Shown piece by piece: positions 17,000 to 25,653 of a stretch of 42,823 bases of DNA (the stretch's first letter is position 1; each line of letters opens with the position of its first letter). Below the pieces are notes generated by a model, which worked only from the letters and a program-made list of their open reading frames with translations, ran no database searches and was not told the origin of the DNA. The translations under genes were made by a program, and so were the position numbers. Source of the stretch: Candidatus Binataceae bacterium (lineage in GTDB: Bacteria; Desulfobacterota; Binatia; Binatales; Binataceae); the NCBI GenBank assembly GCA_030041155.1, contig JASHOJ010000211.1:1-42823 (forward strand), written 5' to 3'.

Positions 17000-17932
17000 T
17001 CACCGCGTTTCGGCGTCTGCGTCCGGCTGAAGCACGCGGGCAAGCCGGACGAGATCGTCCACGGCGAGCGTCGCCGCCCGCGCGCGCGGATCGACGGCCG
17101 CGCTTGCGAGCGCCAGGTCGATTTGCTCCAGCGGGCGCCCGAGCGACCGCGAAAGCGCGTTGCGCAGGGTCTTGCGCGGCGCGGAGAACGCGGCGCGCAC
17201 CGTGCGCAACACGCGTGGCTCTTCGCCCTCGGCAAATGGCGCTGCACGCCGCGGACGTATCACAAGAACTTCAGCGTCCACTTTCGGGCGCGGATGAAAA
17301 TTCCCAGCGCCGACCCGGAAGTACGACTCGATATCAAAATACAGCGCGGTGAAGACACTGAGCGCGCCATAGTCGCTCTCGCCGGGACGCGCGCGAATCC
17401 GCTCGGCAACTTCGCGCTGAAACATCAGAACCATCCGGATGATAGATCGGTAATGATCGCACAGCCGGCGCAAAATCGCCGCCGCGGCGTTGAATGGGAG
17501 ATTGCCGATCACCTTGACCCCGCCTTCGCCAAGCAGTGGGCGCAGGTCGAGCTTTAGAAAATCGCTGACGAGGATCTTTACTCGCCGATCCTCGCTGAAC
17601 CGATCGGCAAGACGCGTCGCCAATCGCGCGTCCAGCTCAACCATCGCGAACTTCGCGACCGGATATGTTGCAATGCGCTCGCTCAGCACACCGAGGCCCG
17701 GGCCGATCTCGATAACGCGGTCGCCGGCTTCAACTTCTGCCGCTTCGACGATTCGGCGGGCGATCGCAGGCTGCACGAGGAAATTCTGTCCTCGCGACCG
17801 CGCGGGAATCACCTGAGCGGCGGCGAGCGCGCGACCGGGGCGGATCGCGCCAACCTCGGCAGATGCAAAAGGCGGTGCGATCGTCGTTCCCCCTGGTCGC
17901 TGCCCGCTAGAGGCGGAGATTCGCTTCCGCAT
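17000..17932 (-). CDS. rsmA: 16S rRNA dimethyladenosine transferase
   Basis: About 310 residues. The enzyme dimethylates two adjacent adenines in helix 45 of 16S rRNA during 30S maturation. SRGQNFL, VIEIGPGLGVLSE (SAM motif I), VELDARLA (motif II), and VIGNLPFNAAAAIL (catalytic NLPF; the commoner form is NLPY) are all visible, with the C-terminal helical domain ending in VDDLVRLARVL. The ATG at 17932 overlaps tsaD by 26 bases and gives an N-terminal extension about 35-40 residues longer than typical before the GQNFL motif, so the true start could be a non-ATG codon further in. Also known as ksgA. Confidence 0.94.
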   Translation of the reverse strand: MRKRISASSGQRPGGTTIAPPFASAEVGAIRPGRALAAAQVIPARSRGQNFLVQPAIARRIVEAAEVEAGDRVIEIGPGLGVLSERIATYPVAKFAMVELDARLATRLADRFSEDRRVKILVSDFLKLDLRPLLGEGGVKVIGNLPFNAAAAILRRLCDHYRSIIRMVLMFQREVAERIRARPGESDYGALSVFTALYFDIESYFRVGAGNFHPRPKVDAEVLVIRPRRAAPFAEGEEPRVLRTVRAAFSAPRKTLRNALSRSLGRPLEQIDLALASAAVDPRARAATLAVDDLVRLARVLQPDADAETR

Positions 17933-18911
17933 CGATGTCCAACGGATCTCGTTCGCCGCGCAGCAGTCGATAGCTGCCCGCAAGCGCGATCATCGCGGCG
18001 TTGTCGGTGCAATATTTGAGCGACGGAGCGACGACGCGAAAGCCCTCGTCCTCACCCGCCTCGGCCAGCCGCGCGCGCAGACGCGCATTCGCCGCCACGC
18101 CGCCGGTAAGCGCTATCGTTCCCGCGCCAAGCTCGCGGGCGGCCGCGATGGTCGGCTTGATGAGCATGTCGACCACCGCTTCCTGGAAACTGGCGGCCAA
18201 ATCCGCGGGTGCGGTCGAGCGTCCGGATTCTGAAGCGAGGAAGGTCGCGACCGCCGTCTTGACGCCCGAGAAACTGAAATCACGCGGTGCGCCGCGAACA
18301 TGTGCGCGCGGAACTTTGACGCGCTTTGGATCGCCCTTGCGCGAAAGCTCGTCGATTACACGGCCACCCGGATAGCCGAGCCCCATCATCTTGGCAACTT
18401 TGTCGAACGCCTCGCCCGCGGCGTCGTCGCGAGTGGAACCGAGTCTGCGGTATTGCCCAAAATCTTCAACCGCAAAGAGCGCCGTATGTCCGCCGGAGAC
18501 GACCAGCGCCAGATAGGGCATCCCGATTTCGTTCTCGATAAGCGGCGCGAGCAGGTGCCCCTCGATATGGTTGACCCCGACCATCGGAAGTCCGCTCGCT
18601 TGCGCGAGCCCCTTCGCGCACATCAGCCCGACCAGCAGCGAACCGACCAGTCCCGGCCCGCGCGTCACCGCGATACCGCCAAGCTCGCGGAGGCTTACGC
18701 CTGCGGATTCGAGCGCGCGCGAGATCACCGGCAAAATCGTGACGACATGGTTGCGCGACGCGAGCTCGGGAACGATTCCGCCATAGGCGCGATGGATATC
18801 GTCCTGATTGGCGACCACGTTCGCGCGCACGGTGGCGGCTCCGGGCCGCGTGGTTTCCATCACGCACGCCGCGGCATCATCACATGACGATTCGATTCCC
18901 AGGATCAACAT
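17907..18911 (-). CDS. tsaD: tRNA N6-adenosine threonylcarbamoyltransferase subunit TsaD
   Basis: A 334-residue ASKHA-fold protein that transfers threonylcarbamoyl to A37 of ANN-decoding tRNAs, with TsaB/TsaE. GIESSCDDAA near the N-terminus, the metal ligands His115 and His119 in NHIEGHLLAP, VSGGHTALF, EAFDKVAKMMGLGYPGG, FSFSGVKTA, ALTGGVAANARLR and the C-terminal ligand in KYCTDNAAM are all present. ATG at 18911 is preferred; a TTG 12 bases upstream is in frame but lies within a tandem 14-base repeat. No Shine-Dalgarno sequence is seen. Confidence 0.96.
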   Translation of the reverse strand: MLILGIESSCDDAAACVMETTRPGAATVRANVVANQDDIHRAYGGIVPELASRNHVVTILPVISRALESAGVSLRELGGIAVTRGPGLVGSLLVGLMCAKGLAQASGLPMVGVNHIEGHLLAPLIENEIGMPYLALVVSGGHTALFAVEDFGQYRRLGSTRDDAAGEAFDKVAKMMGLGYPGGRVIDELSRKGDPKRVKVPRAHVRGAPRDFSFSGVKTAVATFLASESGRSTAPADLAASFQEAVVDMLIKPTIAAARELGAGTIALTGGVAANARLRARLAEAGEDEGFRVVAPSLKYCTDNAAMIALAGSYRLLRGERDPLDIDAEANLRL

Positions 18912-18914
18912 CAG

Positions 18915-18956
18915 GATAGTCAATATCGGATAGTCAGCATCGGGTAAGCAGCATCG
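18915..18956. repeat. Three tandem degenerate 14-bp repeats before tsaD
   Basis: Units on the plus strand: GATAGTCAATATCG (18915-18928), GATAGTCAGCATCG (18929-18942), GGTAAGCAGCATCG (18943-18956). They lie between the TPR gene and the tsaD start, in the presumed tsaD translation-initiation region. The TTG in the first unit is in frame with tsaD. Confidence 0.75.
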
Positions 18957-19009
18957 CGATCATTTCTCGCCATCGGCTGAGATTATTCCCACTCGCCGCG
19001 CGCGGAAAG

Positions 19010-19912
19010 CTAGTCATTCGGCGCGTCGCTCTCGCCCGGCGGAGGCGGCGGCGGCGCGACGGTTGGCGGTGGCGGAGCCTCGCTTTGCTGCGGCGGTGCC
19101 AGATTGGCGTTCTCTGTAGCCATAGCGGAGGGCGACACTCCAGGAGGAGATGTGACACTGGGCGCAAGACGCGTGTATCCGACCCGCGCCATCAGATTTC
19201 CCGGATCGGCCGCCATTGCCTGTTGATAGGCCGCCGCGGCGGCATTGATATGGTCCGCTTGCTCGTACGCAAGGCCTTCGAACGCGAGCGTTTCTCCGAG
19301 CCAGACCGGATTGGTGGTCCCGAAACCGATCTCGGCGCGTTTGAAGAAGCTCAGCGCCTGGGTGAGATCCTTTTTCGCTATGTAGGCGCGGCCCAGGTAA
19401 AGATAGGCATAAGGATTTGCCGAATCGATTCCGATTGCGCGGCTGAGCGTGCGAATAGCGTCATCGGTCTGACCCGCCAGAAGCTCCTTGCGCGCCTCAT
19501 CCGTGACGCGCAGCGACGCGGCGCGCGCGGGATCGGATTCACTCCCAATTATGCTCTCCAGCGACGAATCGCTGACCCTGAGCGTCGGCGTGATCGATCC
19601 GATATCCGGCGGCGATGGTTCGCCGGTCGGCGTGGGCATCGCGGTTGGCTCGGCAAAGATTGGCTGCTCAGTGGGTGTCGCCGAAGGAGTTGGCGACGGC
19701 GTCGGCGGCATCACGCCTTCAGCGTTCGGCGTCGGAGTAGCCGTGGGGGTCGGGGTCAGATCGGCGGCGCCGATCGATTGCTCCTGAAACGCGACCTCAA
19801 TCGGCGCGCCGCTACGAGCGGCGTATGCGGCGGCCGGCAGCATGAAACTTACGACGAGCACGCTTACAAAAAAAATTCTTCGTGCGGAGGGCGGCGGCGA
19901 TTCAGTGCGCAT
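19010..19912 (-). CDS. Exported TPR protein with a Pro/Thr-rich linker, coupled to PBP1b
   Basis: A 300-residue protein. The N-terminus is a signal peptide (RRIFFVSVLVVSFMLPAAA, cleavage near AYA-AR) without a lipobox Cys. Residues about 50-105 are a disordered linker rich in TPTP/PSPT repeats. About three TPR repeats follow (KELLAGQTDDAIRTLSRAIG; NPYAYLYLGRAYIAKKDLTQ; EGLAYEQADHINAAAAAYQQ). The C-terminal about 50 residues are poly-Pro rich. Its ATG shares a base with the TGA of the PBP1b gene (TGATG), so the two are translationally coupled. By organisation it resembles LpoP of Pseudomonas, a linker-TPR activator of PBP1b encoded beside it, except that no lipid anchor is seen. That role is inference. 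Confidence 0.88.
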   Translation of the reverse strand: MRTESPPPSARRIFFVSVLVVSFMLPAAAYAARSGAPIEVAFQEQSIGAADLTPTPTATPTPNAEGVMPPTPSPTPSATPTEQPIFAEPTAMPTPTGEPSPPDIGSITPTLRVSDSSLESIIGSESDPARAASLRVTDEARKELLAGQTDDAIRTLSRAIGIDSANPYAYLYLGRAYIAKKDLTQALSFFKRAEIGFGTTNPVWLGETLAFEGLAYEQADHINAAAAAYQQAMAADPGNLMARVGYTRLAPSVTSPPGVSPSAMATENANLAPPQQSEAPPPPTVAPPPPPPGESDAPND

Positions 19913-22287
19913 CAATCGTTGGGATCAGTCGTCGCATCCGGCGCGGCGGGGACCGCATGAGCGGAAGTCGCGATGGTGCCCGGCTTGGGCGGCGCGCAGG
20001 TCTGGGCCGGCGCCATGTCCTGCGGGAAAACTCCTTCTATCGCGTCGGGCGTAAAGGGTCCCGCTTTGCATCCAGTCAGCGGATCGATCTTTTCCTCCAC
20101 GATTCCGGGCGGCGGCTTAAAGTCCAGCGCCGGGCGCGATGCGGTCGCGGTCTTCATGAATTCCGTCCAGGTTGGCAGCGAAGCCTGCGCGCCGGTGAGC
20201 CCCAGCGGATCCTTCTGGTCAAAGCCGGTCCATACCACCGCGAGCAGATTTGGCGTGAAACCCGCGAACCACGCGTCTTTGGCATCATTGGTGGTTCCGG
20301 TTTTGCCGCCCGCGGGCCGCATGAATCCTCTCTGACGCGCGCCGTAGCCGGTGCCGTGATTGATCACCTGCTCCAGCATGAACTGCATCATGTAGGCGAG
20401 TTGCGGCGAGAGGACCTGCTGCGCCTGCAGTTCGTGGCCCTCGATTACGTGGCCGTTCTCATCGACCACGGCGGTTATCGCGTAGGGCTGAACTTCCTGT
20501 CCATAGTCCGCGATAATCGCGTAGGCACGCGCCACCTGCATCGGCGAGACCTCGATTCCACCGAGGACGATTGACGGATATGGCGGCAGATCGCCGAATC
20601 CGAGCCGCTTCGCCATCGCGATAACCTTGTCCAGACCGATCGAATAGGCAATGCGGGAGGTTGCCGCGTTGAGCGATTCCTCGAGCGCGAATTCGACCGG
20701 CACGTTGCCGAAAAACCGGTCCTTATAGTTGCGCGGCGACCAGCTCATGTTGTCCGCGTATTGCCACGTCCACGGCGAATCATCGACATAGCTGGTAGGC
20801 AGCAGCTTGACCGGCCCGCCATCGAGAGTCTCCTGAAACGCGGCAAGATAGGTCACCGGCTTGAAAGCCGATCCGGGTTGGCGTTTGGATTGGGTAACGC
20901 GATTGAACTGGCTCTGGCGATAGTCGCGCCCGCCGACCATCGCGCGAATTTTTCCGGTCTGCGGCTCCAGCGCCACCAGGCACGATTCGAGCCGCTGATC
21001 CTTTTCCTTGCGCAAAAGCCGCGGGTACTTGGTTTCGAGATCGACCAGGTTTTGGCGAACCGCGGTTTCGGCCAGCTTCTCAGTATGCACGTCGAGGGTG
21101 GTGAAAATCCTGAGCCCCTCGTCATTAAGGACCTGCAGCGGATAGCGTTCGGCAAGCTCCTTCTTCACGTAGTCGACGAAATACGGAGCGTCGTTACTCT
21201 CGGTGTACACTTCGCGCGCGCGCAGCGGCTCGGCGATCGCATCGTCGTAGGCGGCTTTGGAGATGTAGCCGTCCTCGAGCATCGAGGCCAGCACCTCGTT
21301 GCGGCGGCGCTGGGCGTCAACCGGATGCCTCAGCGGATTGAGCCGGTTGGGCGAGCTAATCATTCCGGCGATCGTCGCCATCTCCGCTATACTCAGATCG
21401 CGCGGCTCCTTGGAGAAGTAGTATTCGGACGCTTCCCACACGCCGAAAATTCCCTCCTGTCCGCGCTGGCCCAGATATATATCGTTTATATAGTTCTCCA
21501 GGATGTCATCTTTTGAGTATTTGCGCTCGGCGATATACGCCATTATCGCTTCCTTGACCTTTCGCTTCCAACTGCGCTGATTGGTCAGGAAGAAATTTTT
21601 CATCAACTGCTGAGTCAGGGTCGATCCGCCCTGCTCGATATGATGCGAAGTCAGGTCGACGAACGCGGCCTTCATGATCCGGACCGGATCGATGCCGTGA
21701 TGCTCGTAAAAGCGGTGATCCTCGGCGGCCAGGATCGCGTCGATCATCGCCGGTGGAATCTGATTGAGCCGCACCAGGCGGCGCTGATTCCAACTGCCCT
21801 CGAAGATGCCGCTGATCAGCTCGGGTTCGAGCTCGATTGAGAAAACCGGCTTGCCGGTCACGGGATCGCGCATCGATTCGATGGTCTTGTCGGCTGAAAG
21901 CTTGATATCGACCATCTCGCCGCCGAAGTTGCCGTACGGATAGGCAAAGCTGTGTAGAAACAGAACCAGGTCGCCGCTCTTCTCGTCGTAGCTGTATTCG
22001 CCTCGCCCCTGCACCTGGTCCGGCGCCATCCGATGGTAGTTGAGTCGCGCCAGCCGCTGGAAGAATCCGATTTCGGGAAGGTTCTGGCCCGGATAGACAA
22101 TTGTCGAATCTGAGTATATGCGCGACGGGATATTCCAGCGCTGGCCGGAAAAGCGAGTTACTACTTCATTCTCGAGCGCGCGATAGTAAATGCTGAAATA
22201 GTAAATCGCGGGCGGAATGGAGAACAGAATCGCCGCTGCCACGCCTAGCAGCGTGAATTTCAGTACCCGTCGAAACGACATCTGCAT
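19912..22287 (-). CDS. mrcB: Bifunctional class A penicillin-binding protein, PBP1b type
   Basis: A 791-residue peptidoglycan synthase: one N-terminal helix (about residues 10-32), a UB2H-like regulatory region (about 55-140; IYSDSTIVYPGQNL, YDEKSGDLVLFLHSFAYPYG), a GT51 transglycosylase domain with catalytic Glu189 in AAEDHRFYEHHGID and GGSTLTQQLMKN, and a transpeptidase domain with S473-x-x-K476 (GSAFK), S538-x-N540 and K662-TGT. The UB2H region defines PBP1b rather than PBP1a and is the docking site for outer-membrane activators in E. coli. The C-terminal tail is Pro/Ala-rich. It is followed, with a TGATG overlap, by the TPR protein and preceded by the HtrA-type protease after a 36-base gap. 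Confidence 0.94.
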   Translation of the reverse strand: MQMSFRRVLKFTLLGVAAAILFSIPPAIYYFSIYYRALENEVVTRFSGQRWNIPSRIYSDSTIVYPGQNLPEIGFFQRLARLNYHRMAPDQVQGRGEYSYDEKSGDLVLFLHSFAYPYGNFGGEMVDIKLSADKTIESMRDPVTGKPVFSIELEPELISGIFEGSWNQRRLVRLNQIPPAMIDAILAAEDHRFYEHHGIDPVRIMKAAFVDLTSHHIEQGGSTLTQQLMKNFFLTNQRSWKRKVKEAIMAYIAERKYSKDDILENYINDIYLGQRGQEGIFGVWEASEYYFSKEPRDLSIAEMATIAGMISSPNRLNPLRHPVDAQRRRNEVLASMLEDGYISKAAYDDAIAEPLRAREVYTESNDAPYFVDYVKKELAERYPLQVLNDEGLRIFTTLDVHTEKLAETAVRQNLVDLETKYPRLLRKEKDQRLESCLVALEPQTGKIRAMVGGRDYRQSQFNRVTQSKRQPGSAFKPVTYLAAFQETLDGGPVKLLPTSYVDDSPWTWQYADNMSWSPRNYKDRFFGNVPVEFALEESLNAATSRIAYSIGLDKVIAMAKRLGFGDLPPYPSIVLGGIEVSPMQVARAYAIIADYGQEVQPYAITAVVDENGHVIEGHELQAQQVLSPQLAYMMQFMLEQVINHGTGYGARQRGFMRPAGGKTGTTNDAKDAWFAGFTPNLLAVVWTGFDQKDPLGLTGAQASLPTWTEFMKTATASRPALDFKPPPGIVEEKIDPLTGCKAGPFTPDAIEGVFPQDMAPAQTCAPPKPGTIATSAHAVPAAPDATTDPND

Positions 22288-22323
22288 TAACGGGGCGCGA
22301 TGCCGTGTTTCGGCCGCGCGGAT

Positions 22324-23787
22324 CTATGCCTGCGGCTTGATCGCGAAGTAGAGCGTGCCCTCACCCCGCCGCACCAGCAGCAGTACCACCTTGCCATTGC
22401 TCCCCGCCTTGAGCGCGCGCTGATAAGACTCGACATTCTTAACCGGCGCCCGATTTACCTCCAGAATCACGTCGCGCGCGCGCAAACCGGCCTCATCCGC
22501 CGCGCTGCCTGGATTCACCGACGAGATCACGACCCCGTGCGCCTGCGAAAGTCCGAGCTGTTGCGCAAGCGACGCATCCAAGTCCTTCACGCTAAGCCCG
22601 AACTCCGACGGCATCCCTTTCGCCTCGGGTGCCGGAGCCTCCGCCGAGGCCAGCTCGGCCTCGTGCGATTCGGTGATTGTCGCCGATAGCGTTTTTACCT
22701 GCTTGTCGCGAACTACCTTGATTCGAACGGTCTGATTGAGCGGCGTGTTCGAGACCATCAGGGGCAGCTCGCGCGAGTCGGTCACCTGCTTGCCGTCGTA
22801 CTCAGTAATAACGTCGCCGCGCATAATTCCCGCGGCCTGCGCCGGCCCATGCGGCAGCACCTGCGCAACCAACGCTCCCTGTGCGTTCGCCAGCCCCATC
22901 GATTGCGCCAGCTCGGGGGTGACTTGCTGGATGTAAACGCCGAGCCATCCCCGCGTCACCTTGCCGTACTCGCGCAGTTGCGGCAGTTCCTGCTTGATCA
23001 GATTGATCGGAACCGCGAACCCGATTCCCATGCTCTGGCCGGTCTGGGTGTAAATTTCCGAATTTACCGCGATTACCGCGCCGTGCAGATCGATCAGCGG
23101 GCCGCCTGAATTGCCTGGATTTATCGACGCATCAGTCTGAATAAACTGATCGAAGTTGTCCGGAATAAAACGGCCCTTGGCGCTTACGATTCCGGCGGTC
23201 ACCGAATGGTCAAAGCCAAACGGATTTCCGATCGCCATCACCCATTCGCCGACTTTCACCTGATCGGAATCGCCCAGCGGCGCGACCGGCAAATCATGCC
23301 CGGCGTTGATCTTGAGCAGCGCGACGTCGGTCTTTTTGTCGCGCCCAACCACCTTCGCCGGATAGATCTTGCCATCTTTCAGTGTGACCGTGACCGACTC
23401 GGGATTATCGACCGCGTGATCGTTGGTCAGGATGTAACCGTCGGGCGAGATGATAAAGCCGGATGCGAGGCTCTTGGTATGCCGATGCCCATACGGTTCG
23501 AAGGGGCCGGGGAAGTCGCCCTGATGCTGCTCGCCCTCTTCGCCCTCGCTCGATGGCTCCTCGCCTTCCTCGGTCGAGATATTCACCACCGCAGGTGAAA
23601 GCTTGGCCGCAAGCTCGACGAAGTTAGGCATCGTCTCGGCCTTGACCATATGCCCGCCGTCATCATCGGGAACATCGGTCCAGAAATGATTGCTCGCGAC
23701 CGCGGCGTTAGCGGCAAACGCGAGGGTGACTGACAGAGCGACCAATGCGGTGGTGAAAAGCGCAACCCGAATCAATTTAGGCGGCAT
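22324..23787 (-). CDS. HtrA/Deg family periplasmic serine protease with two PDZ domains
   Basis: A 487-residue protease of the DegP/DegQ class with a signal peptide (ALFTTALVALSVTLAFAANA). The catalytic triad is His124 (LTNDHAVDN), Asp154 (KKTDVALLKI) and Ser227 (INPGNSGGPL). An acidic, Glu-rich insertion (about residues 73-92) lies in the position of the LA loop. PDZ1 spans about 280-365 (GVYIQQVTPELAQ...), PDZ2 about 400-480 (GVVISSVNPGSAADEAGLRA). It degrades or chaperones misfolded periplasmic proteins. It lies between a DUF1844 gene (19 bases) and mrcB, in an envelope-maintenance operon. Confidence 0.95.
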   Translation of the reverse strand: MPPKLIRVALFTTALVALSVTLAFAANAAVASNHFWTDVPDDDGGHMVKAETMPNFVELAAKLSPAVVNISTEEGEEPSSEGEEGEQHQGDFPGPFEPYGHRHTKSLASGFIISPDGYILTNDHAVDNPESVTVTLKDGKIYPAKVVGRDKKTDVALLKINAGHDLPVAPLGDSDQVKVGEWVMAIGNPFGFDHSVTAGIVSAKGRFIPDNFDQFIQTDASINPGNSGGPLIDLHGAVIAVNSEIYTQTGQSMGIGFAVPINLIKQELPQLREYGKVTRGWLGVYIQQVTPELAQSMGLANAQGALVAQVLPHGPAQAAGIMRGDVITEYDGKQVTDSRELPLMVSNTPLNQTVRIKVVRDKQVKTLSATITESHEAELASAEAPAPEAKGMPSEFGLSVKDLDASLAQQLGLSQAHGVVISSVNPGSAADEAGLRARDVILEVNRAPVKNVESYQRALKAGSNGKVVLLLVRRGEGTLYFAIKPQA

Positions 23788-23806
23788 GGGTAGAAAATCC
23801 GAGCAG

Positions 23807-24349
23807 CTAACGTGCCGGCTGCTTTACAATCTCAACGTATTTCATTCGGAGGTCAAAGAGAATCGCTTCCATTAACCGGCTTTCATTCTGATCCAGGTTT
23901 CCCCGGGTCTTTTCCCTGAGCAGCGCCAGAATATCGATCAACTGCTGCGCCGCGCGCAGGTCGCGCCGCGCCTTGCCGGTAGCCGGGTCCGGCATCTCGC
24001 CCAGGGCAGCCAGCGCCTCGGTCGAAAGGCCGACGATAAAAGTCGCGAAGCTCAGCTCCGGCTCGCCTGATTCTTTTGTGGCCGATTCTTTTGCCGATTC
24101 GCGGCCTGCTGCCGACTGCGTGGTGAATTGCGAATCTGCCTGCTGCGAACCTTGCGATGGTCGTGAGGCTTCCGAAAATTGCGACTGCGAAGATTGTGAA
24201 GCCTGCTGTGAGGTCTGCCCGGACTTCGCCTCCGCTCCTGATTCCGCAGTGGTCTCTTCCTCGGCTCCGGGCTTAGCCTCGCCTTCGGCGGAGAAGCGGC
24301 GCCGATCCTGGACCTTGAATCCCTTGTCCTTTTCTTCCTGTTCTTCCAT
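23807..24349 (-). CDS. DUF1844 protein with a Ser/Gln-rich N-terminal region
   Basis: A 180-residue protein. Residues about 1-22 are charged (MEEQEEKDKGFKVQDRRRFS); about 23-95 are low-complexity Ser/Gln/Ala/Glu. The C-terminal about 85 residues are the DUF1844 domain: LSFATFIVGLSTEALAALGE, then the DLRAAQQLIDILALLREKT helix and NESRLMEAILFDLRMKYVEI. The family is found in Deltaproteobacteria, Acidobacteria and relatives; its function is unknown. No signal peptide or membrane helix is seen, so it is cytoplasmic or peripheral. It is located between htpX and the HtrA-type protease, hinting at a link to envelope quality control. Confidence 0.88.
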   Translation of the reverse strand: MEEQEEKDKGFKVQDRRRFSAEGEAKPGAEEETTAESGAEAKSGQTSQQASQSSQSQFSEASRPSQGSQQADSQFTTQSAAGRESAKESATKESGEPELSFATFIVGLSTEALAALGEMPDPATGKARRDLRAAQQLIDILALLREKTRGNLDQNESRLMEAILFDLRMKYVEIVKQPAR

Positions 24350-24411
24350 CGCAAGGCACCCGCGCGCCTATCTGCGCGCATCACTGAGGACTTAACTGAT
24401 GAAAGCTTACC

Positions 24412-25275
24412 TCATGCGGCGCGGCCGGTAGCCATATTTTCCAACCGGCGGATTCGTTCCTCAATTGGCGGATGAGTGGAAAACAGGCGCATGATTCCGC
24501 CCGCGGTGAGCGGATTGACGATAAACAGATGGGCGGTTGCGGGTCCGGCGTCCGGCAGCGGCATCCGCTCGTTGGCGCTTTCGAGCTTGCGCAGCGCATT
24601 GGCGAGCAGCAGCGGATTATGCGTCATCCGCGCCCCGCTCGCATCGGCCTGATATTCGCGGGTGCGCGAGATAGCGAGCTGGATGAGCATCGCCGCAAAT
24701 GGCGCCAGCAGGCTGATCGCAATCAGCCCGATTATTCCGCCGCCTTCGTCCTCTTCGCGCCCGCCAAAGCCGCCGAACAGCGCGCCAAAACGCGCCACGT
24801 ACGCGAGCATCATGATCGCGCCGGCCAACGTCGCCGCTATCGAACTGGTCAGGATATCGCGATTGATCACATGGGAAAGCTCATGGCCGAGCACGCCCTT
24901 GATTTCGTCGCGGCTGCAAATCCGCATGATCCCGCTGGTGACCGCGACCGCCGCATGCCGCGGATTTCGCCCGGTCGCGAATGCATTGGGCGTGTCGGTT
25001 TCGATCATGTACAGCCGCGGCATCGGAATTCCCGCCGAAGTCGCAAGCTCGTTTACGATCGAATACAGTTCGGGCGCGCTTGATGCGTCGAGCGGCTTGG
25101 CGCTGTACGCCGCGAGCACCATCTTGTCGGAAAACCAGTAGCTCACGAAGTTCATGATCGCGGCAATAATGAAGGCGACCACCACGCCGCCGCGCCCACC
25201 GATAAGGCCGCCGATAAGCATCAGCAGCCCGGTCAAAGCGCCCAGAAGAAAAGTTGTCTTGAGAAAGCTTCCCAT
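24412..25275 (-). CDS. htpX: Protease HtpX homologue
   Basis: A 287-residue membrane zinc metalloprotease (M48). Two N-terminal helices ([40 protein letters not shown]), the zinc motif HELSH at residues 131-135, two further hydrophobic segments, and the third ligand region [13 protein letters not shown]. HtpX degrades damaged inner-membrane proteins together with FtsH. The ATG at 25275 was chosen over a GTG 18 bases upstream because it gives the usual [15 protein letters not shown] start. First gene of the long minus-strand run; DUF1844 follows after 62 bases. Confidence 0.96.
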
Positions 25276-25653
25276 CGATTTGTCGGTTCCCACGCCGAAG
25301 TTTTATGTGGCTTTCGATCGCGGCTCCGCAGTCCCTTATCCGACCGCGAACAACCTACATGAACCTCACGAAAGCCTTGATATATAAGCTTAAATCGCGC
25401 GACGGGACACTAATTTGAAGCTACGCTTCGGCATTTTCGTAGTCAACGTAACCGCGCAGGCGGTGTGCCAGTTCGAAATCTCAGGTTTTCGCAAAGGGGC
25501 AATGCGAACGGATTTTTTGGCTTGAGTCCGTCCCGCCTTCCTGAGCACTTTCACGCCCCCCACATTGGCGCGTGTTCTGCCCGTGCTGATTCGGCCTTCG
25601 TAAGGTTTTCAGTATAGCGGGAGGCGAAAAGCGGGCACCACTACGCTCCGCAG
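25276..25653. other. Intergenic region between htpX and the toxin-antitoxin pair
   Basis: 378 bases without a supported gene. An AT-rich island (TTGATATATAAGCTTAAAT, 25378-25396) about 100 bases upstream of htpX is the best place for its promoter on the minus strand, but no well-spaced -35/-10 pair was clear. No sigma-32-like box was recognised. A short minus-strand frame near 25440-25490 ending HRLRGYVDYENAEA-stop may be a gene remnant; it is too short to call. Confidence 0.4.

Follow-up and report, generated by a model that had tools for sequence, protein, structure and literature searches.

A contig of 42,823 nucleotides from a Candidatus Binataceae bacterium (GCA_030041155.1, contig JASHOJ010000211.1; the whole stretch is called the window below) encodes a PBP1b-type class A penicillin-binding protein (PBP) followed directly by a secreted protein consisting of a Pro/Thr-rich linker and tetratricopeptide repeats (TPRs). 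The TPR protein is probably the LpoP-like activator of this PBP1b, and it would have lost its lipid anchor once, at the base of one Binataceae clade, to become a cleaved and soluble protein of the periplasm. In the prevailing model for Gram-negative bacteria, an outer-membrane lipoprotein reaches through the peptidoglycan and switches on a class A PBP, and new wall is thereby inserted at sites of stretched mesh. The outer-membrane anchor of these activators is regarded as necessary for steering wall growth. The clade described here is a natural lineage that keeps the synthase, the partner and their pairing without the anchor site. It offers a natural test of the anchor's purpose, and its family also contains lipoprotein-like sister groups to compare it with.

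PBP1b and its linker-TPR neighbor

The taxonomic frame of the window is Binataceae-like (phylum Binatota), and the host genome comprises 4.5 Mb in 335 contigs. The window features described here are encoded on the minus strand. The PBP gene (19912-22287) encodes 791 amino acids (aa) and unites in a single chain a UB2H domain (residues 64-148, 21844-22098; Pfam PF14814), which is the candidate docking site of the partner, a glycosyltransferase domain (residues 164-336, 21280-21798) and a transpeptidase domain (residues 436-680, 20248-20982). This is the layout of a PBP1b-type class A PBP. The Pfam E-values are 1.9e-62 for Transgly, 1.2e-33 for Transpeptidase and 6.9e-5 for UB2H; the last match confirms a UB2H-like region that the initial annotation of the window had placed at about residues 55-140. 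In a six-frame scan of the genome the UB2H domain scores 28.2 bits, above the Pfam cut-off, and a UB2H match is found in 38 of the 40 PBPs of alignment A2 (40 of 75 PBPs). The cut-off of the NCBIfam PBP_1b equivalog is not attained by the window PBP. A second class A PBP is encoded on contig 220 of the same genome (L128:3899-6358), with a UB2H score of 49 bits, above that of the window PBP. A neighboring TPR or Lpo-like gene is absent there, and the next gene encodes what appears by eye to be a Vgb-like beta-propeller protein.

The TGA of the PBP gene (19914-19912) overlaps the ATG of the TPR gene at 19912, the two codons sharing one base in the string TGATG (19910-19914). The downstream gene (19010-19912) encodes 300 aa without a cysteine. 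The putative activator begins with a signal peptide (residues 1-31, 19820-19912), in which AYA stands ahead of the predicted cleavage site and no lipobox is found. A conserved acidic motif (IEVAFQEQSIGAADL, residues 38-52, 19757-19801) follows, then a Pro/Thr-rich linker of mostly low predicted local distance difference test (pLDDT) values (about residues 53-125, 19538-19756), three TPRs with a cap helix (residues 128-252, 19157-19531) and a Pro-rich C-terminal tail (residues 253-300, 19013-19156). In the AlphaFold model, seven helices at residues 128-252 form three pairs and the cap, with pLDDT values of 96-98 in the ten-residue blocks from 121 to 250, and an N-terminal hydrophobic helix is predicted at residues 9-23. 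The Pfam matches of the protein are limited to TPR families, and TPR_19 is found in all 54 of 54 partner proteins (alignment A1, 54 of 63 TPR proteins). Both the overlap of stop and start codon and the description as a secreted protein made of a Pro/Thr linker and about three TPRs had been given in the initial annotation, and both hold.

The pairing of the two genes is conserved. A scan of species genomes with the window PBP gave 416 relatives, of which the best 80 were retained, corresponding to 78 loci. Two of these were left out (L057 and L078, PBP truncated by the contig end), so that 76 were followed; the PBP end was readable in 74, as L041 and L070 run off the contig. Setting aside L073, L074, L079, L080 and L081 (other lineages) and L036 (downstream sequence too short) left 68 usable Binatota-like loci. 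In 62 of these, by plain count, the next gene encodes a homologue of the TPR protein (phmmer, E <= 1e-5). With start codons of our own choice, the TPR gene starts at -4 to 0 relative to the PBP stop in 25 loci, overlaps it more deeply in 7, and starts 1-100 bases downstream in 26 and more than 100 bases downstream in 4. Within the window's family, the TPR gene occurs in 40 of 41 genomes and in all 17 of 17 genera. In 39 of the 40 gene-bearing genomes, a PBP is encoded upstream in the same orientation, no more than about 310 bases away; the other one (G033) is cut by the contig start.

Two variants of the spacing were observed. In one lipoprotein-like family group (L020, L021, L027), the PBP and TPR genes are not near-overlapping and are separated by about 280-340 bases. 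At L008:2967-6185 and L007:3176-6436, the two genes lie in one frame with a single TAG between them; if this stop codon were lost, synthase and partner would become one fused protein.

Distribution of the lipobox

The window TPR protein has no cysteine at all, and no lipobox is present in its frame, in which only four codons are open ahead of the ATG. When the frames were scanned for a strict lipoprotein pattern, possible start codons included, a match was obtained in 28 of the 37 partners that fall outside the clade of the window vs. 3 of the 26 inside it (window included). By eye, a cysteine is located at the end of the hydrophobic stretch in 36 of the 37 outside partners; the sequence of L031 is N-masked at this point. 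All 30 of 30 distant loci that could be read have a lipoprotein-like partner, as do seven members of the family to which the window belongs, including G008, which was added from the family search. Judged by these patterns, the absence of a convincing lipobox is real and not a start-codon error, and what had been noted for a single protein applies to the entire clade.

On the PBP tree, the simplest placement of the anchor loss is a single event at the base of one Binataceae clade. In a tree of 47 rows drawn from 82 PBPs (39 rows from the family, plus 8 distant rows picked among lipoprotein-like loci), the 32 rows labelled as non-lipidated are found on one side of one branch with a support of 99/96, and one state change is obtained in all 200 bootstrap trees. 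A quick tree of all 75 PBPs recovers the same clade with 26 rows (Shimodaira-Hasegawa-like approximate likelihood ratio test, 98). The lipobox labels on the PBP and TPR trees were assigned by pattern and by eye, and 9 of the 32 clade rows are equivocal (L012, L016, L018, L024, L025, L026, L043, L122 and L130); omitting these nine still gives one change on the PBP tree. The change is read as a loss, given the lipoprotein-like state of the family's sister groups and of those distant homologues that could be read. The initial annotation had suspected a different architecture. This stands as far as the lack of an anchor is concerned, but the un-anchored form is a derived version of a layout that is lipoprotein-like outside the clade.

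The lipoprotein machinery is retained: Lgt, LspA and LolA are all present in the window's genome. The TPR domain of the clade is under purifying selection, with dN/dS values of 0.02-0.31 in the 9 of 10 clade pairs that allowed an estimate (some pairs have common members); two lipoprotein-like pairs gave 0.10 and 0.25. The loss thus looks specific, and the protein appears to be functional. Searches of the whole genome for LpoB (PF13036) and LpoA (PF04348) gave no match, and the E. coli controls were recovered in both. The TPR protein is therefore the only candidate activator found.

Acidic motif and C-terminal tail

A regular expression for an acidic motif of the EE(S/N)(I/L) type matches behind the signal region in 98 of 120 listed homologues, some of the others being cut N-terminally. 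As the core is fixed by the expression, only positions outside it are independent evidence; these are also conserved, typically in the order A, D/E, L/M. The motif is located 37-53 residues past the cysteine in six lipoprotein-like family members; in L027, the expression matches at 16 and a better match by eye lies at about 44. A related stretch, e.g. REEDL, is found in 15 of 30 distant homologues. It thus seems to predate the loss. In the derived form of the clade, the signal peptide seems to be joined almost directly to the motif. The motif blocks have pLDDT values of 52-61 in the single-chain AlphaFold model, and the motif is confidently placed neither there nor in a fused-chain model.

Fold matches to HOP and SGT had raised the idea that the motif binds, as an EEVD-like ligand, in the TPR groove of the same protein. 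This was rejected in view of the low pLDDT of the motif blocks and of the carboxylate-clamp positions, which we take to be N12 and N43 and which, aligned by eye to the window protein, are lost (N12 -> R141, N43 -> Y172). Twin-arginine export was rejected as well, the RR pair of the window protein not being consistently conserved.

The Pro-rich tail reaches a pLDDT of 87 at residues 281-290 and perhaps packs against the TPR domain. Within the final 60 residues, PPPP was seen in 19 of 25 clade members, in 3 of 6 lipoprotein-like members of the family and in none of 29 distant homologues.

Comparison with known activators

LpoP was reportedly discovered by Greene et al. in 2018. The Pseudomonas lipoprotein LpoP has a disordered tether, and its TPR domain binds UB2H and speeds up the glycosyltransferase of PBP1B 4.5-fold (PMC7267771). 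The gene of the Acinetobacter TPR lipoprotein adjoins the PBP1B gene (PMC7943195), and the lipid-free soluble LpoP of either genus boosts its own PBP1B in vitro (PMC7267771, PMC7943195). The LpoPs of Pseudomonas aeruginosa (PDB 6W5Q) and Acinetobacter baumannii resemble the window protein in their long disordered N-terminal tether, their C-terminal TPRs and the UB2H-bearing PBP1b. The window pair combines a disordered linker and C-terminal tandem TPRs with a gene position beside PBP1b and a UB2H domain, weak in the window, on the PBP1b itself, so that the layout suggested initially for an LpoP-like pair is recovered along with its conserved pairing. Both LpoPs, however, are lipoproteins (Cys19 in Pseudomonas), whereas the window protein has neither lipobox nor lipidated cysteine and, unlike LpoP, carries the acidic motif behind its signal peptide. 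As the lipoprotein feature is lacking and kinship with Pseudomonas LpoP was not seen beyond the TPR fold among the matches listed, the window protein is classed as an un-anchored LpoP-like partner, outside the LpoP lipoproteins.

The role of the anchor has been probed in E. coli by artificial relocation of LpoB (PMC9593243). LpoB relocated to the inner membrane still activates PBP1B, so that activation as such does not require anchoring in the outer membrane, and the cells cut peptidoglycan synthesis less on osmotic upshift (PMC9593243). Like the proposed window activator, LpoB has a long linker that reaches the UB2H domain of PBP1B (PMC9593243); it differs in being a lipoprotein with another globular fold, from a family without a match in the window's genome. 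CsiV of Vibrio cholerae is likewise a small periplasmic protein required in a class A PBP pathway, but it acts via the lipoprotein LpoA, binds peptidoglycan and apparently does not bind the PBP (PMC4063736). A search of titles and abstracts of the open-licence literature (LpoP, non-lipidated or soluble class A PBP activators, Binatota and peptidoglycan) gave no natural un-anchored activator among the matches listed.

Proposed role and alternative explanations

By analogy with Pseudomonas LpoP, the TPR domain would dock on UB2H near the glycosyltransferase domain and shift PBP1b to its active state. Without a tether, activation would be freed from its dependence on an activator threading through stretched peptidoglycan, and would be set by the amount of activator and by whatever binds the N-terminal acidic motif. 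The simplest reading is an LpoP-like partner minus its tether, in which activation would be retained and mesh gating abandoned or shifted elsewhere. The signal regions weakly favor a soluble over a signal-anchored protein. A more far-reaching version can be put forward tentatively: the activator may have been freed from the outer membrane in a single step that ended mesh-size gating, and the acidic peptide at its mature N-terminus may have become the new localizer of a diffusing, peptide-guided protein.

Several points weigh against a soluble LpoP-like activator. Its interaction with PBP1b and its activity are proposed by analogy, and the fused-chain AlphaFold model, with a pLDDT of about 28 for linker and motif and a predicted template modelling score of 0.63 with about 170 disordered residues, is uninformative on contact. 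In the protein scan, the UB2H domain of the window scores 23.2 bits, under the Pfam cut-off of 27 bits. A kinship with Pseudomonas LpoP beyond the TPR fold, which matches many unrelated TPR proteins, was not seen among the matches listed, and 6W5Q is absent from these. No TPR homologue follows the PBP in 6 of the 68 usable loci by phmmer and profile search (L042, L047, L048, L064, L065 and L069), so that the partner is dispensable in some lineages. Scoring the three pattern-positive clade rows as lipidated raises the number of changes on the PBP tree to three, and scoring all nine equivocal rows in this way raises it to nine. The TPR-domain tree (45 domains, 133 columns) requires two changes; a single clade is not rejected on it (approximately unbiased test, p-AU 0.374). 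Finally, an AxA site resembling that of signal peptidase is found behind the hydrophobic stretch in 26 of 31 clade members, but it is not clade-specific, being present also in 5 of 7 lipoprotein-like members of the family and in 16 of 30 distant homologues.

CpoB (YbgF) of E. coli is soluble in the periplasm and has an N-terminal coiled-coil trimerisation domain. Like the window protein it is a TPR protein, and it contacts PBP1B and tunes its transpeptidase (PMC4458516). It modulates LpoB-stimulated transpeptidation and does not activate PBP1B by itself. The window protein could be a partner but no activator, i.e. a CpoB-like soluble TPR protein acting as modulator or scaffold, which would tune the synthase or tie it via the motif to another envelope machine. 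The conserved acidic motif suggests such a second partner, and the six loci without a TPR gene also fit. This explanation is nevertheless rather unlikely: the gene is located beside PBP1b, between neighbors (HtrA, PBP1b, TsaD, RsmA) that do not represent the tol-pal operon of CpoB, and the genome contains no LpoA or LpoB match. Moreover, outside the clade the homologues show the Lpo layout of a lipoprotein-like protein with a long linker, and instead of a coiled coil the AlphaFold model shows an N-terminal part of signal peptide and low-confidence Pro/Thr linker without long helices.

An activator held in the inner membrane by an uncleaved signal peptide, which would meet PBP1b on the inner side of the peptidoglycan, is improbable. 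The hydrophobic helix predicted at residues 9-23 could serve for such retention, and the relocated LpoB of E. coli indicates that activation from the inner membrane can work (PMC9593243). However, the signal segments vary freely among relatives, and the AxA site in most clade members argues for cleavage, with the reservation on its specificity given above.

That the clade proteins are still lipidated via degenerate lipoboxes, the loss being an artefact of patterns and start-codon choice, is very unlikely: L016, L025 and L043 match the strict pattern, several other clade rows have a cysteine within or just past the hydrophobic stretch and nine changes result if all equivocal rows are lipidated, but the window protein is cysteine-free in a frame that leaves room for no more than four further codons at the N-terminus, and the cysteine of a pattern-positive row is not shared at this position by its close kin (L015 vs. 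L016).

Gene order and minor observations

The order on the minus strand is HtrA-like protease, PBP1b, linker-TPR protein, TsaD and RsmA. This run (17000-25293 in the window) is kept across the Binatota-like loci: of the 62 partner-bearing loci, some of which are cut short, 55 have an HtrA gene and 54 a TsaD gene on the same strand. Upstream of it, genes for a DUF1844 protein and an M48 peptidase are located in the window. A search of a viral fold library gave no match at E <= 0.001. Both window proteins end in PND. As this C-terminus is kept in many PBPs of the clade but not in the TPR proteins, the agreement was taken as chance. At L065 and L069, tsaD comes almost straight after the PBP gene. 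L065 is titled Klebsiella pneumoniae, but its PBP groups with Binatota-like sequences, and the entry is probably a misnamed metagenome bin.

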